A DNA stretch of 19,643 nucleotides, taken from contig JAJZZW010000016.1 of the NCBI GenBank assembly GCA_021797385.1, forward strand, positions 1 to 19,643, in the 5' to 3' direction. Both the position numbers and the translations under genes were made by a program. The stretch is from Thermoplasmata archaeon. Its GTDB lineage: Archaea; Thermoplasmatota; Thermoplasmata; Thermoplasmatales; Thermoplasmataceae. Below the pieces are notes generated by a model that worked only from the letters and a program-made list of their open reading frames with translations, was not told the DNA's origin and made no database searches. Below, one piece after another: positions 5,704 through 19,643 of the stretch (position 1 is its first letter; each line of letters starts with the position of its first letter).

Positions 5704-5772
5704 TAAATCAAATCTCTTTTATGAATTTAAGTCTTTCCAAGGTTATGTATCATATTATGTGTAAATATAAAC

Positions 5773-5812
5773 CTCCCTGTTAATAATGAAATGATCATTA
5801 AATAACAGGGAG
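5773..5812. repeat. Inverted repeat / hairpin
   Basis: CTCCCTGTTA (5773-5782) and TAACAGGGAG (5803-5812) are perfect 10-base inverted arms. An inner AATGA/TCATT pair (5785-5789 and 5795-5799) extends the stem after a small internal loop, leaving a five-base apex. It lies between the ThDP enzyme gene and the MFS gene. It could be an RNA structure, an operator or a remnant end of a mobile element. Confidence 0.6.
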
Positions 5813-5825
5813 AAATACCTCTTTT

Positions 5826-5862
5826 GAATCCAGGAGGTAATAAAATATTGGAATATACCGCT
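5826..5862 (+). repeat. Imperfect direct repeat, copy 1 (fragment of radical SAM 3' end)
   Basis: This stretch aligns with 8355-8393 in the same orientation. Both begin GAATCC, and both contain TATTG then one variable base, AATATAC, one variable base and GCT, with small indels between. In the frame matching copy 2 it reads NPGGNKILEYTAL beside SQGEIKVLQYTAI. The two copies flank the exporter-peptide-maturase cassette. Confidence 0.5.
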
Positions 5863-5964
5863 TTGAATTCACAAATCATTAAGTGTATCGATAAGTGAGG
5901 TAAAACAGGAGAATCCATCACGGGAAATCTCCACGAAGTTATATTCTGGAATGAGTCTATCAAA

Positions 5965-7176
5965 TCAATTGAGGGTCGTTGATTTATGTACTTTAGGCAA
6001 ATTTTTAAAGAACAATAGAATAAAAAAATTTATAGAAAAAATGACAGATATAAATATAAATGAGTATTTTAAAATATAAGACGATAAAATATATCCTATT
6101 ATTAGGGCGAATATTGGGATAACAATAGAATTTAATGTATTTTTTAATCCATATATACTGCCTGAGATATTTTTATCTATATACTTGAGATTAATAAGAC
6201 TATGGAATAAAGATAATATCGATTCCATAAATCCGCTTGCAAACAACACAATATAGATTGAATACAGATAATAATGTGATAAATATATAATATAATAAAC
6301 GAATATAAATGAAAATGATATAAATATATAATATTTATGGATAATTTTCCTGCTCTCTGTTTTTATTTTTGAAGTTAAAAACGTACCAATTAAGCTCCCA
6401 AGCAATGAAGAAACATAGAATGATGTTAATATAATTGCACTTACTTTTATTATATCATGTGATATAAACACAATAAGGGGCATAGTCATTACCATAGCCG
6501 CCCCATTAACTATCGCCAAAATGGTGAAAAGTTCGATAGTATTATTATTCTTTAAATATAGTATGCTATCTCTAAGGCTCTTCAATTTAGTTAAACTGAA
6601 TTTTTTGGTTTCAAATTTTATTCCACTAACATCTAACGATAGAAAAACTGAGGTCACCAATCCATAAATTATAAGCATAAATAGTATTGAATATATATAA
6701 TTATATGCTAATAACATACCAAGTGAAAGAAGACCAATAATTGATGAGATAAAAATCACCGAATGTAAATTTTTAAAATATTTTTTGGAACTTTCATTTT
6801 TAACGATGTGTTGCTGGATAGCCATAAAACTCAGATTAGAAAAAGTTGATAACAACCGCAATATAAATAATAGTAGTAGAAAAATAATATAATTATTAAA
6901 TGAAAAATTTAACAGATCTAAAAGCATAAAAAACAGAATAACTACCTTGAACATTTCAGAAAATGTTAATAGTAATTTTTTATTTTTTATGCTATCAGTT
7001 AATGGCCCTATGATAAATGAAAATATAGCCGGTATGTAAAATACAGATAACGTTATACTCCCCAGCAATATCGAACCGGTTCTAATTAGAATTAAATCAA
7101 CGAAAATTAATGCTGCCCCATATAATAAAGAATTCAAAAAAATTGCAATATATATTTTTTCGTAATTGTTAAGCAT
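5965..7176 (-). CDS. MFS-type transporter, probable exporter
   Basis: This protein of about 403 residues has 10-12 hydrophobic helices, rich in Ile/Leu/Phe/Ser, separated by short Lys-rich loops. That is the pattern of major facilitator efflux proteins of the MFS_3 (drug/siderophore export) kind. After the second predicted helix comes GPLTDSIKNKK, which matches the conserved loop 2-3 motif G-x-x-x-D-(R/K)-x-x-(R/K). The ATG at 7174-7176 is chosen because a TATA box at 7195-7204 lies about 25 bases before it; an upstream in-frame TTG at 7191 would start inside the promoter. The gene is strikingly AT-rich compared with the core genes, a sign of transfer. It is divergent from a 46-codon ORF and a radical SAM peptide-maturase-like gene, so I infer that it exports a small modified peptide. 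The substrate is not proven. Confidence 0.8.
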   Translation of the reverse strand: MLNNYEKIYIAIFLNSLLYGAALIFVDLILIRTGSILLGSITLSVFYIPAIFSFIIGPLTDSIKNKKLLLTFSEMFKVVILFFMLLDLLNFSFNNYIIFLLLLFILRLLSTFSNLSFMAIQQHIVKNESSKKYFKNLHSVIFISSIIGLLSLGMLLAYNYIYSILFMLIIYGLVTSVFLSLDVSGIKFETKKFSLTKLKSLRDSILYLKNNNTIELFTILAIVNGAAMVMTMPLIVFISHDIIKVSAIILTSFYVSSLLGSLIGTFLTSKIKTESRKIIHKYYIFISFSFIFVYYIIYLSHYYLYSIYIVLFASGFMESILSLFHSLINLKYIDKNISGSIYGLKNTLNSIVIPIFALIIGYILSSYILKYSFIFISVIFSINFFILLFFKNLPKVHKSTTLN

Positions 7177-7194
7177 AATCCTAAAATACAAACC

Positions 7195-7204
7195 TTTATA
7201 TATA
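7195..7204 (-). promoter_or_regulatory. TATA box of MFS exporter gene
   Basis: The plus-strand sequence TTTATATATA, read on the minus strand, is centred about 25 bases before the ATG at 7176. It supports a leaderless transcript and the shorter start. Confidence 0.5.
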
Positions 7205-7228
7205 CATATATCGCATCAATATCTTGAT
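7204..7228 (+). promoter_or_regulatory. Promoter and dyad ahead of the 46-codon ORF
   Basis: A TATA-like ACATATAT (7204-7211) lies about 25 bases before the ATG at 7233. Between them is the dyad ATCAA-TATC-TTGAT (7215-7228), placed where a repressor would block initiation. The TATA box abuts that of the divergent exporter gene, so both directions could be controlled together. Confidence 0.4.
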
Positions 7229-7232
7229 AGAC

Positions 7233-7373
7233 ATGAAAGAACATATAAAATGGAGTATAGAAGTTGATAGATTTGGTGTGATAAAATATTCTGAAATTAA
7301 TGGAGAGAATGATCCAATAAGCCCGAAAATGGCTAACTTAAGATGTGGCGTAGAGCTTGAAATACTTTATTAA
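7233..7373 (+). CDS. 46-residue peptide, candidate RiPP precursor
   Basis: This short ORF runs from ATG 7233 to TAA 7371-7373 and is not recognised as a known family. The N-terminal half (MKEHIKWSIEVDRF) is charged, the middle is acidic and polar (EINGENDPISP), and the C-terminal end contains MANLRCGVELEILY with a single Cys at 38. Support for it being real is positional: a promoter signal 25 bases upstream, and a gap of only 21 bases before the start of a radical SAM-SPASM gene in the same direction. Precursor peptides of RiPP pathways are typically this size and placed directly ahead of the maturase. With one cysteine, a Cys-to-backbone thioether or another single cross-link would be possible. 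The alternative is a chance ORF or leader peptide. Confidence 0.5.
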   Translation: MKEHIKWSIEVDRFGVIKYSEINGENDPISPKMANLRCGVELEILY

Positions 7374-7394
7374 TATTATTTTATTCTGAAATTT

Positions 7395-8456
7395 ATGATA
7401 TACAATAAAAATCTGATATTAATAATCATGCCTACCGAGCTATGCAATTTTCGGTGTGTTTATTGTTATGAAAATTTTATTCTTAAAAAGATGGAAACTA
7501 AAACTTTTAACGGTATTAAAAATTAGATATTGAATAGAGCACCTACACTTGAAGAATTAACCATAGATTGGTTTGGAGGAGAGCCCATGCTTGCATATAA
7601 TATAATAAAAGATATAATGCAATTTTCACACCGCTTGTCAGAGAAATACAATTTTACGCTCATATCATCTATGACCACAAATGGTAGTTTACTAACATTA
7701 AAGAAGTTATATGAATTGAATGAGTTGGGAGTTAACCGCTTTCAAATTTCTTTTGATGGAAATCAGGATCTGCACGATAAACTCAGGATAACCAGAGTTG
7801 GAAATGGCTCTTTCAAAATTATATATCGGAATTTAGTGAATCTACATAATAGTAACTTAAGATCATCAATCATAATTCGGCTACATTTAAATAAAAATAA
7901 TTATGAAGGTATATCAAAATTCATCGACAAATTATCAGAGGATTTTGCATATGATGATAGATTTTTGTTATTTATACGTGGGCTATCTAAACTGGGTGGG
8001 AAAAATGACAATGATTTACCGGTTATAGAAAATCCTGAGATAGTGAAAAATATGATAACAACCCTGACATTAAAAGCGAGGAAATTACATTTAACATTGT
8101 ATAGAGATGCTTGTATAATGTGTTATGACGCCTCGTTCTCGGAATATGTTATAAGGTCTGATGGTAGCATACAGAAATGTACTGTAGCCTTATATGACGA
8201 TAAGAATACTATATGGAAAATAAATGAAGATGGAACAGTAAATATAAACACTGATAAATTGACATATTGGGTTAGGGGTCAGTTATCTGGGAATCCGGCA
8301 CAGCTAAAATGCCCACTAAGGTCTAAAAATTGAAATATTCATAAACTATGTAAGGAATCCCAAGGTGAAATTAAAGTATTGCAATATACGGCTATTATAA
8401 ATAGTCTTAGCCTTAATTTGAGTCAAAATGTTTTACTCTTAAATTCAAATAAATAA
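7395..8456 (+). pseudogene. Radical SAM-SPASM peptide maturase-like gene interrupted by in-frame stops
   Basis: One continuous frame runs from ATG 7395 but is broken by TAG at 7524-7526 (codon 44) and TGA at 8331-8333 (codon 313); it closes at TAA 8454-8456. Before the TAG is the CNFRCVYCYE cluster motif (Cys 17, 21, 24). After it come WFGGEP (GGEP at 61-64), TTNGS and QISFDG, typical of peptide-modifying radical SAM enzymes. A SPASM start with Cys 240, 243 and 262 follows, including the CX13GX4C pattern. A CP at 306-307 and a Cys at codon 319, beyond the TGA, resemble the end of a SPASM domain, but the usual CX2CX5CX3C block is missing. The flanks of the TAG join smoothly (GIKN-stop-ILNR), as if a Tyr codon mutated. 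The piece after the TAG (from TTG 7530) lacks the cluster cysteines and should be inactive alone. Confidence 0.75.
8355..8393 (+). repeat. Imperfect direct repeat, copy 2
   Basis: This is the partner of 5826-5862 in the same orientation, about 2.5 kb away. It lies inside the 3' tail of the radical SAM gene, after the second in-frame stop. Confidence 0.5.
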
Positions 8457-8702
8457 TTTGGATAATGTAATTATTTTACTTCTATGAAAAACCTATACTT
8501 AACATTCCTTTATGCCACCGCTAAATAGTTATTCACTTTAGCGTTATCTACTCTATAGTTTTTCACTATTTCCTTCATTGAAAGCTTCTTCAGAATTCCA
8601 AAGTGTAGTTCATTAGTAGTTATAGATAGTTTAAACCTATGCAAATCTAAATAGATATATATAAAGAATAATTTATATAAATATATTAGCAAGGTAATCT
8701 AA
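8457..8702. other. AT-rich intergenic region with small hairpin
   Basis: These 246 bases hold a perfect 7-base inverted repeat, CGCTAAA (8519-8525) with TTTAGCG (8537-8543). At the right end a TATA-like TTTATATAA (about 8673-8682) lies roughly 25 bases before the IS remnant ATG. A 60-codon minus-strand open frame (8510-8692) ends with a helix-turn-helix-like stretch around KLSMKEIVKNYRVDNAKV, but its N-terminal part is low-complexity Tyr/Ile/Leu. It could be a fragment of a transposase or regulator, and I do not call it a gene. Confidence 0.4.
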
Positions 8703-8873
8703 ATGCCTGGAAGAATATGGACCGGTGAGGAGAAGTATAATATTATAATGGAATCATTCCAGAATCCTGATATTACCATAGCAGAGATATGCAGGAACCA
8801 TGGAATAGCTGTATCAATGTTCTACAAATGGAAGGATCAGTTCTTAGAAGGAGGAAGAAAGGAACTGGAATGA
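8703..8873 (+). mobile_element. IS3-type transposase OrfA remnant (N-terminal helix-turn-helix)
   Basis: A 56-codon ORF (ATG 8703, TGA 8871) starts PGRIWTGEEKYNIIMES and continues with AEICRNHGIAVSMFYKWKD, the helix-turn-helix of IS3/IS911 OrfA proteins (HTH_Tnp_1 type). Complete OrfA proteins are about 90-110 residues, with a coiled coil after this domain, and are followed by an OrfB integrase; both are absent here. About 120 bases of debris follow, including a short frame reading YRLYLVDKARRHEYRSDE of unknown origin. I see no convincing terminal inverted repeats. It is most likely a dead fragment. A domesticated small DNA-binding protein is possible, because it has a plausible promoter upstream. 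Confidence 0.65.
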
Positions 8874-8992
8874 TGAGAATAAATCCATGCAGAGAAATGC
8901 CTTTTTCATAACCTATCGATTGTACCTGGTGGATAAGGCCAGGAGACATGAATACAGATCTGATGAATGATAATATTTATTTTTAATGGCCT

Positions 8993-9277
8993 TTATCTTT
9001 TCCCATAGGTTTTATTATAAACTTCATCATGTGTGCCAATTTTTATAAATATGGCCATGCAGTCTTCTTCCTCTATTCTATAGAGTATTACGATTTTTTG
9101 CCTGTTTACTTTTACTGTTCTGTAATTTTTGATACGGCCTGTTTTAGTGGCACCGATATAGGGATTTTCCTTCACCGCATATATTTTCTTTTTAATCTGT
9201 TCTTTGATATTTTTATCTTTAACCTTTTGTATATAATCTTCTATAGCAGATAAATCAATAGAATAATTATCACACAT
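8993..9277 (-). CDS. RelE/ParE-superfamily toxin-like protein
   Basis: This 94-residue basic protein fits the RelE/ParE toxin fold. An N-terminal helical pair (LSAIEDYIQKVKDKNIKEQI) precedes KENPYIGATKTGRIKNYR, then the strands VNRQKIVILYRI and CMAIFIKIGTHDEVY. The NP(Y)xG-turn, basic centre and Gly-Thr-His-x-x-x-Tyr end are usual for the family, whose ribosome-dependent members cut mRNA; ParE members instead target gyrase, and the sequence does not decide between them. The ATG is only five bases after the stop of the upstream DUF4065 gene, so they form one transcript, antitoxin first. No separate promoter or clear Shine-Dalgarno site is visible, so translation is probably coupled. Confidence 0.78.
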   Translation of the reverse strand: MCDNYSIDLSAIEDYIQKVKDKNIKEQIKKKIYAVKENPYIGATKTGRIKNYRTVKVNRQKIVILYRIEEEDCMAIFIKIGTHDEVYNKTYGKR

Positions 9278-9282
9278 TTAAA

Positions 9283-9852
9283 TCATGAAAATAGAGAATC
9301 TATGTCAGAATCATCTTTTATTATATGCCTACCATATATTCCTTTTCGGATATTCTCTTTGTCTATTTCTTCGGCATTTTTCCAGAAATCATCAGAATTA
9401 ACTTCACTGTAAAACCATGCAAAGCTGTCAAGGTCTATAGGATTGTCGAAATCTTCTGCATCGATATAAGGCTCCGTTTTATCTGCCAGTTCCTCAAGTT
9501 CCTTTCCATTTTTATTAATATATGGTTTTATAAGATTATCTATAATAACTGAGGTTTTATTATCTATTTTAAAATCATCATTAATAAGCTCTGATTCCTT
9601 TGCAGGATTGGTACCTGCCTGTTCTTTAATTATAATATCTTCTTCAAGGTCTTCAATGTTTTTTATATCTTCAGAATAAGGACCAAAATAATAACGCTTG
9701 AATGATAGATCAGATAATCTTTTTCCATATTTTTTAACATATTCATATTCAGCAAAATAAGAAAGTTTTTGTAATTTCTTCTGGGACAATGGACCATATT
9801 TGCTTAATAGATATTTAACAAGGTCTACTCCGCTTATTTTTACTTTCTCCAT
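9283..9852 (-). CDS. Panacea (DUF4065/SocA-like) antitoxin
   Basis: This 189-residue acidic protein begins with the DUF4065 pattern. VDLVKYLLSKYGPLSQKKLQKLSYFAEY is the helical start, and FKRYYFGPYSEDI (about 47-59) is the family's typical F-x-x-x-x-x-GP(Y/V) block. The C-terminal third (DADFD/DLDSFAWFY region) is strongly acidic and may bind the basic toxin. Panacea-domain proteins are known antitoxins paired with many unrelated toxins; SocA is a ClpXP adaptor-type member. Here the partner is the RelE/ParE-like gene five bases downstream. The ATG at 9852 has a TATA box (9872-9879) about 24 bases upstream, giving a leaderless mRNA. The domain call is fairly firm; the antitoxin role is inferred from the pairing. 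Confidence 0.8.
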   Translation of the reverse strand: MEKVKISGVDLVKYLLSKYGPLSQKKLQKLSYFAEYEYVKKYGKRLSDLSFKRYYFGPYSEDIKNIEDLEEDIIIKEQAGTNPAKESELINDDFKIDNKTSVIIDNLIKPYINKNGKELEELADKTEPYIDAEDFDNPIDLDSFAWFYSEVNSDDFWKNAEEIDKENIRKGIYGRHIIKDDSDIDSLFS

Positions 9853-9871
9853 ATACTACAATTAAAATCAC

Positions 9872-9879
9872 TATATATA
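9872..9879 (-). promoter_or_regulatory. TATA box of toxin-antitoxin operon
   Basis: TATATATA is centred about 24 bases before the ATG of the DUF4065 gene. No obvious operator dyad accompanies it. Confidence 0.45.
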
Positions 9880-10022
9880 CATTTTTCGTTATAGCATACT
9901 TATAATATAATCCAGTAATTATATAATGTTATTTTTATATTACAAAAACAGGATCGGAAGTATATAAATAAAGAATTGAGAACACTAACCTAGCATGTTA
10001 CTGCATTGAACTTTTATAATCA

Positions 10023-10107
10023 TGCAAGGGACGGGATTTGAACCCGCGAACTCCTTCGAGATAGAATCTTAAGTCCTACACCTTTGGCCAAGCTTAGTTA
10101 CCCTTGC
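10023..10107 (-). tRNA. tRNA-Leu (anticodon UAA)
   Basis: The minus strand gives an 85-base class II tRNA. The acceptor stem GCAAGGG pairs with CCCUUGC and the discriminator is A, with no encoded CCA. The anticodon stem UAGGA/UUCUA closes the loop CUUAAGA, so the anticodon is UAA. A long variable arm (CUC-GAAG-GAG stem-loop) is present, as expected for Leu. The T arm GCGGG/CCCGU holds the UUCAAAU loop. No intron is seen. It marks the right edge of the accessory block. Confidence 0.95.
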
Positions 10108-19456: not shown

Positions 19457-19643
19457 CTCTTTTACCTTCTGATAGATTCATGGTATTCAAATTTTATAAT
19501 TAAATATTTGTTGCTATACAGACTCTCCGCATGTGTTAAAGCTGATGATGTAATACAGCCCTTTAACATGAAAACATCATGTTATTCCATCCATTAGATG
19601 CATTAATTGCCATAACTGTAGTACTATAAATAACATATAATCG
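19457..19643. other. Terminal intergenic sequence, no gene seen
   Basis: These 187 bases at the window's end hold an AT-rich promoter-like stretch for the acetyltransferase (about 19490-19510). No ORF, tRNA or repeat that I can support is present. Confidence 0.5.

Follow-up and report, generated by a model that had tools for sequence, protein, structure and literature searches.

A candidate Asn-x-x-Cys peptide cassette of Thermoplasmatales archaea and its probably decaying copy in one contig

Introduction

A 46-codon open reading frame (ORF) standing between a gene for a major facilitator superfamily (MFS) exporter and one for a radical S-adenosylmethionine (SAM) enzyme raises the question whether an archaeon makes a ribosomally synthesised and post-translationally modified peptide (RiPP), by what chemistry, and whether the copy at hand still works. 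We addressed this for contig JAJZZW010000016.1 of an acid-loving Thermoplasmata archaeon, a stretch of 19,643 bases (hereafter the window) that looks like Thermoplasmatales-type chromosomal DNA, in which an earlier note had proposed an undescribed system of peptide, maturase and exporter. Our comparisons make it likely that this is an archaeal RiPP cassette whose peptides carry Asn-x-x-Cys (NxxC) and receive a ranthipeptide-like Cys-to-Asn thioether, and that the window copy is decaying. This reading builds on gene order, homology, the motif, the absence of the surrounding block from four relatives and a stop codon, each of which was observed directly.

Precursor peptides and their core motif

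An ORF of 34-40 residues with a leader-like start lay directly before the maturase gene in 6/6 relatives with upstream DNA, while in the seventh, genome G413, that DNA is cut by a contig end. The earlier note had named loss of the peptide where the maturase is kept as an observation that would speak against its proposal, and no such loss was seen. The shared start is of the type MEIDEYGR, with the variants MIDNIEIDNYG in genome G006 and MNVDKYG at locus L035 (G003:C56), and other short frames are also present there. A second precursor in G006, located between two MFS genes, is the closest homologue of the window peptide; as sole query against 3022 ORF segments it retrieved the latter at E = 8.2e-5, and the two have the core ANLxCGxEL in common. 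With the window peptide and the six maturase-linked ones, it makes up a family of eight archaeal peptides. Searches of the same segments with profiles lacking the target recovered the peptides of L002 (E = 1.7e-8), L032 (1e-6), L033 (1.4e-4) and L034 (8.1e-8), and, once the second G006 peptide was included, that peptide itself (L031b, 6.3e-5), the L031a peptide (1.1e-4) and the window peptide (0.0042). Because ORFs of the same type occur in all six testable relatives and the second G006 peptide matches that of the window, the small ORF goes beyond chance.

A profile of all eight peptides, run over 39,078 ORF segments of the fetched loci, returned its own members first, followed by a peptide remnant at G003:C31 (E = 0.083), a chance-looking ORF at L094 (0.19) and two Pseudoalteromonas precursor ORFs with insignificant values (1.6 and 3.4). 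In a public protein set the eight peptides matched seven entries, none of them through the L035 peptide, and the window peptide was present on 16 contigs; a Pfam scan of the 46-residue peptide gave no match. We rejected the idea that this ORF is the frame-shifted N-terminal domain of the maturase, as the peptide has its own family and its own position in relatives. The features that define a RiPP precursor, namely a conserved leader and a variable core, encoded beside a maturase and kept in relatives, were found here, with left-out support for five of the six maturase-linked peptides and the window's and none for that of L035.

We then assessed the cores of these peptides. NxxC, the substrate motif of NxxC ranthipeptides, occurred within the last 18 residues of all eight archaeal peptides (10 motifs, two peptides having two). 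When the last 18 residues were shuffled 100,000 times, a mean of 1.3 of 8 peptides carried the motif and eight was never reached, while other Asn-Cys spacings were found in 0-1 of 8. C-terminal Cys was present in six of the eight and Cys next to last in one, and the window peptide ends in Tyr. Because the motif was chosen after looking at the archaeal peptides, bacterial homologues are the fairer check, and we examined 80 maturase loci, 6 from Thermoplasmata and 74 others called bacterial here, though L072 is labelled Sulfolobus. Leader-matched ORFs of 25-120 residues ending within 500 bases upstream of the maturase numbered 18. Three were archaeal, all with NxxC; the 15 bacterial ones came from 14 loci, and 13 of them carried the motif. 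Among leader-matched ORFs elsewhere in the 80 loci, NxxC was present in 7/150 (7/102 of those containing Cys); plus-strand ORFs 500-1500 bases upstream entered neither count. The 13 bacterial NxxC ORFs had 54-88 residues, many with a double-glycine leader end.

Other small ORFs were observed around maturase homologues. Four bacterial loci (L088, L098, L103 and L109) had tiny downstream ORFs of 22-24 residues that start with M[KT]W and end in NCNC, NCNCG or NCGIC, three of them in tandem in L088 and L109, and these are possibly another precursor family. On a Chlorobiota contig (L115), three tandem precursor-like ORFs about 976 to 44 bases before the maturase had the cores CLNIFCP, CLNIGFCA and EINLGC. 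A scan of viral contigs gave two loci, and at L116 (44% identity) a leader-matched upstream ORF carried NxxC; it stands outside the bacterial motif counts.

Maturase and exporter

Relatives of the maturase were sought in 101 related genomes, where some radical SAM match (E <= 1e-8) was present in 37, strong matches (E below 1e-80) were confined to one gene in G006, three in G037 and two in G003, and the next match followed at 1.1e-18. At E <= 1e-40, a profile (A1) from an alignment of five homologous maturases had matches in 3 of the 400 genomes searched across the class and in 4 of 117 across the order (7 genes), the fourth being G413. The window maturase was 47-61% identical to the six relatives in G006, G037 and G003, with 61% over residues 1-309 for the intact G006 enzyme. 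A maximum-likelihood tree built on 105 rows, 103 of them different, placed the window maturase with the G006 enzyme (100/98), and both of these with the other archaeal maturases except that of L035, in a clade (100/99) whose 19 rows include 13 without an organism label. The L035 maturase was placed in a neighbouring clade, and labelled rows outside came from bacteria or unassigned bins, plus one Thermoproteota row.

A SPASM domain has a CX9-15GX4C motif followed by a full second set of Cys. In the window maturase, as in its archaeal relatives, CX13GX4C is followed by a single further Cys (LKCP in the window) and then the end of the protein, so that the shared C-terminal domain has only three Cys after the CX3CX2C motif; the full second set, with two auxiliary clusters, was not found in the window or the aligned archaeal relatives. 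Judged by its cysteines, this is a twitch-like domain short of full SPASM, and the earlier description as SPASM-like holds for CX13GX4C but no further.

Among NCBIfam models, the window maturase scored best against TIGR04463 (112 bits, cut-off 525), CefB (110, 600), Clo7bot (104, 600) and PapB (99, 340), reaching none of these curated cut-offs, and all 53 homologues scanned matched the four RiPP-maturase models at E <= 1e-20. In TIGR04463, Clo7bot and CefB the matched region started only at model positions 79-87, in PapB at position 5. The earlier note had allowed for an anSME-type sulfatase maturase, which the anSME model TIGR03942 does not support (59 bits against a cut-off of 349), and we rejected an anSME-type or cofactor enzyme on this basis. 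At E <= 1e-10, the sequence profile retrieved a single solved structure, CteB (PDB 5wgg/5why; 2.1e-21). It was also the nearest fold to an AlphaFold2 model of the intact G037:C72 enzyme (L036; mean predicted local distance difference test score 93.6), with a template modelling (TM) score of 0.77 on the query, followed by anSME, SuiB, ChlB and SkfB, the epimerase EpeE being also among the near folds. A PHROGs scan of the window proteins returned radical SAM matches without specific function for the maturase (best phrog_1802, E = 1.1e-31) and only a family without known function for the exporter.

Next to the peptide or maturase gene lies an MFS_1 gene in 7/7 relatives and in the window. It is divergent in the window and twice in G006, and downstream on the same strand three times in G037, twice in G003 and once in G413; G003:C10 has a further MFS gene upstream. 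The proposal that peptide, maturase and exporter would co-occur in the same order with a variable core was thus borne out for the adjoining exporter and for a variable core around a fixed NxxC, but not for a single gene order. G006 contains two divergent MFS/peptide pairs and one maturase, and the window exporter has 50% amino acid identity to the G006 exporter whose divergent peptide is closest to the window's, compared with 39% to the other intact G006 exporter. Because closest exporter and closest peptide pair together in G006, this one cluster suggests that each exporter may serve its own peptide.

Layout and condition of the window copy

The divergent arrangement described in the earlier note, with the exporter on the minus strand and the 46-codon ORF and radical SAM gene on the plus strand, agrees with the coordinates we obtained (Table 1), and the motifs CNFRCVYC (7443-7466), WFGGEP (7569-7586), QISFDG (7743-7760) and CX13GX4C are all present. 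Its maturase gene does contain a radical SAM domain but is not one open frame, a break already implied by its mention of a joined maturase frame. The peptide ORF and the maturase ATG (7395) are 21 bases apart, and the exporter ORF opens with TTG at 7191, the first ATG following at 7176. The bases behind the maturase gene, 8334-8456, yielded no assigned feature. AT-rich stretches like TTTATATATA also precede both G006 peptides, and this stretch may function as a promoter.

Table 1 Coordinates of the cassette and its surroundings in the window.
Feature	Positions	Strand	Details
Candidate MFS exporter gene	5965-7191	minus	Pfam MFS_1, E = 6.7e-14; transcribed away from the peptide gene
TATA-like AT-rich stretch TTTATATATA	7195-7204		putative divergent promoter region, from sequence; begins 38 bases before the peptide ATG
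Candidate RiPP precursor gene, 46 codons	7233-7373	plus	leader EVDRFGVI 7260-7283; core NLRC 7335-7346
Predicted radical SAM twitch-type peptide maturase gene	7395-8333	plus	PF04055, E = 2.3e-17; frame interrupted by in-frame TAG
In-frame amber codon TAG in the maturase	7524-7526	plus	between the CX3CX2C motif and WFGGEP
CX13GX4C motif, predicted twitch-type iron-sulphur domain at the C-terminus	8121-8180	plus	
Accessory block with cassette, transposase remnant and toxin-antitoxin-like pair	5737-10022 (4.3 kb)		from the left-hand gene to tRNA-Leu(taa)

With a TAG in the maturase, the window does not hold the cassette as a complete set of intact genes. The corresponding site is open in the other six aligned archaeal maturase genes. 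Entries of the protein set are clustered at 90% identity, and the one for the 248-residue C-terminal piece of the window maturase (P0047) groups 3 sequences from 5 contigs; TAG in all five contigs is therefore not implied. Among the 120 matches listed there was no full-length near-identical maturase, and the top identity to the window protein after P0047 was 61%. The window peptide also differs from six of the seven other archaeal peptides in lacking a C-terminal Cys. The stop codon, the missing full-length protein among those matches and the missing Cys together make decay the likeliest state, and the copy is probably inactive.

At G003:C31 and G009:C8, a relative of the window exporter, which no maturase adjoins, stands beside a frame-broken remnant of the same peptide; the G009 exporter is 74% identical to the window's and has one open frame, that of G003 is frame-broken, and G009 gave no maturase-family match at E <= 1e-40. 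Pyrrolysine at the TAG was rejected, as PylS exceeded its cut-off in 0/12 related genomes (the window's own genome is not among them) and in 1/14 controls; weaker matches to the PylS model in all 12 related genomes and 12/14 controls are as expected of other synthetases. A single in-frame TAG was also observed in the L035 maturase (7598-8581), at a site different from that of the window; a small ORF with NxxC and an MFS gene with an open frame stand beside this maturase.

The cassette is part of an accessory block, and the AT-richness attributed to it earlier was confirmed, with a guanine plus cytosine content of 28.4% in 5737-10022 against 38.1% elsewhere in the window. The block is absent from G001, G004, G007 and G008 (4/10 congeneric genomes), G001 being the nearest genome compared, with 32% of the window's sampled 31-letter words common to both; in the other six, its flanks are not side by side. 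Because the flanks lie 65-98 bp apart in the four, either the window lineage would have gained the block by insertion or the others would have lost it. No convincing att-like repeat was found at its borders.

Further features of the window were noted in passing. At 8993-9852 (minus) a ParE-like toxin (PF15781, E = 1.3e-9) lies beside a SocA/Panacea-type antitoxin (PF13274, E = 1.2e-11), likely a toxin-antitoxin pair. A remnant of a transposase accessory protein is at 8703-8873 (HTH_Tnp_1, E = 3.6e-9), and about 8615-8870 matches many places in congeneric genomes. A repeat of ~115 bases with an internal CTCCCTGTTA...TAACAGGGAG inverted repeat at the left block border (5741-5856) has many matches in related genomes, and stretches at 19497-19640 and 9900-10046 match several places there. 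The gene left of the block is presumably a thiamine diphosphate enzyme, and from their translations we take the ORFs at the window start to be thermosome-like, thioredoxin-reductase-like and carbamoyltransferase-like.

A flavoprotein beside some cassettes

A 193-residue flavoprotein (PF02441) is encoded beside the cassette at G037:C59. Its nearest solved relatives were 7cfu, MrsD and EpiD, with phosphopantothenoylcysteine decarboxylases matching too. Within the seven archaeal loci the gene is intact at G037:C59 and broken at G003:C10; it was not found beside the G006, G003:C56 and G413 maturases or in the window, and the contigs G037:C56 and C72 end soon after the MFS gene, so that its presence there cannot be judged. 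Being intact beside 1/7 archaeal loci, an EpiD-like flavoprotein was rejected as a fixed part of the cassette. A 60% relative also occurs in genome G021, where no cassette was seen nearby. In bacteria, tblastn gave flavoprotein relatives in 17/74 loci, nine of them near-identical Paenibacillus loci, and in L048 and L113 the relative is more than 3 kb from the maturase. By eye, ORFs with C-terminal Cys occur both with and without the flavoprotein.

The flavoprotein and the C-terminal Cys of most archaeal peptides suggest C-terminal decarboxylation in some lineages. Where an NxxC enzyme and an EpiD/MrsD-like flavoprotein occur together (the G037:C59 type and some bacteria), a Cys-terminal precursor might become an enethiol whose sulphur is joined to the Asn beta-carbon, giving an aminovinyl-cysteine-like ring with no dehydratase. 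We regard this route as quite doubtful. The best NCBIfam models for the G037:C59 flavoprotein, CoaBC and CoaC, both below cut-off, weigh against it, and the CypD RiPP-decarboxylase model was unmatched.

Proposed mechanism and alternatives

Under the favoured reading, a radical SAM enzyme of ~314 residues would recognise in the short precursor the N-terminal motif [IVLF]-D-x-[FYH]-G. The radical SAM core of this enzyme runs from its start, with no N-terminal RiPP recognition element (RRE) and, by prediction, one twitch-type auxiliary cluster; because an N-terminal RRE region is missing, the leader may be bound by another surface. A 5'-deoxyadenosyl radical would take hydrogen from the Asn of NxxC and the Cys sulphur would be joined to that Asn, most likely at the beta-carbon by analogy with NxxcB, so that cores with two motifs would receive two small rings. 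The product, probably an antagonistic or signalling peptide, would be exported by the adjoining MFS protein, and each peptide lineage may keep its own.

In passages of PMC8326336 and PMC13361665, NxxcA/NxxcB are described as the NxxC subfamily of streptococcal radical SAM RiPPs (RaS-RiPPs), a ranthipeptide in which NxxcB joins Cys to the Asn beta-carbon of NxxC. The archaeal cassette is like this system in its substrate motif and in its small precursor with a radical SAM enzyme (PMC8326336, PMC13361665), and differs in being archaeal, in placing the core at the very C-terminus, in having two NxxC in 2/8 cores and in its presumed MFS export. CteB, the SCIFF thioether maturase that is closest by both sequence profile and fold, has an N-terminal RRE and a SPASM domain according to part of PMC8326336, whereas the archaeal maturase lacks both the RRE region and the complete set of Cys residues. 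The best-scoring families TIGR04463, Clo7bot, CefB and PapB remain far below their cut-offs; compared with the first three, the N-terminal model part is missing, and the second half of SPASM is missing as well. Bacterial homologues (Pseudoalteromonas, Shewanella, Nostoc and others) have the same enzyme type at 31-42% identity over the 74 loci. Our search of the open-access literature turned up no recognised account of an NxxC cassette in Thermoplasmatales or of a radical SAM enzyme paired with an EpiD-like protein, and no paper that could be tied to the bacterial loci. The suggestion of an undescribed system can hold only for the archaeal variant, as enzyme and motif point to known chemistry; by these comparisons the archaeal system appears new and its chemistry of a known kind.

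Several observations weigh against this reading. The L035 peptide, when left out, scored E = 1.7, which is not significant, and its membership is argued from position, length and motif, the other five of six being backed by left-out searches; without the second G006 peptide in the set, the window peptide reached an E of 0.79 and ranked behind two unrelated ORF segments. NxxC was named after the peptides had been inspected, and leader-matched ORFs were found within 500 bases upstream in only 14/74 bacterial loci, the remaining 60 having none by pattern and distance, though some show other small Cys-terminal ORFs. The archaeal maturase is tied to NxxcB by motif alone, and the cassette family is known here from its genes. 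As to decay, the peptide remnant in G003 does not mark an enzyme-less genome, since maturases occur on its other contigs, and the window maturase branch (0.34) is not longer than those of its sisters (about 0.28-0.37). Because of this branch length, the nonsense change would be recent, or the gene still in some use.

One alternative keeps the RiPP cassette but gives the enzyme another reaction. An alpha-carbon thioether, an epimerisation or a C-C bond in the NxxC or C-terminal region would agree with a maturase that scores alike against several RiPP-maturase models, all below cut-off, that has SuiB and EpeE near in fold alongside CteB, and that keeps only three Cys in its C-terminal domain; the fixed Asn-Cys spacing in 8/8 archaeal peptides and 13/15 bacterial ORFs instead fits an Asn-Cys bond, and we hold another modification to be unlikely. 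An anSME-type or cofactor enzyme next to a small ORF that arose by chance is very improbable: anSME structures come just behind CteB in the fold search, but the anSME model stays far from its cut-off, a small ORF with common start and motif recurs upstream in every testable relative, five of six of these peptides together with the second G006 one and the window's match public protein set entries, and no sulfatase was recognised among the window ORFs, although no search was aimed at sulfatases.

The state of the window copy has its own competing account, in which the gene works, its TAG being either read through or an artefact of assembly. The conserved remainder of the protein, the unaccelerated branch and the single in-frame TAG elsewhere in the L035 gene speak for this; the PylS result, the missing near-identical full-length protein among the matches listed, the lost C-terminal Cys and the frame-broken related copies speak against it, and we consider a working copy unlikely. 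For the cassette as first proposed, a RiPP reading stands as regards peptide family, exporter and maturase, but the window copy is not intact and the C-terminal domain is twitch-like.

Significance

Sections of a 2025 archaeal RiPP mining paper state that only two archaeal RiPPs, both haloarchaeal lanthipeptides, had been validated before it, and that ranthipeptide and sactipeptide clusters are among the abundant predicted archaeal classes, the radical SAM ones being left for later (PMC12144867). The class represented here had thus already been predicted, and the present analysis defines a Thermoplasmatales precursor family, the enzyme and exporter that go with it, and the residues likely to be modified. 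Should the flavoprotein take part in some lineages, a ring of a new type for RiPPs would follow; to our knowledge, an aminovinyl-cysteine-like ring at an Asn beta-carbon is known from no described RiPP. With 34-46 residues, the peptides are small enough for synthesis, and open-frame pairs of peptide and maturase are present in G006, G037 and G003:C10. The occurrence of NxxC in bacterial precursors predicts that the same bond may be made across a broad enzyme family.

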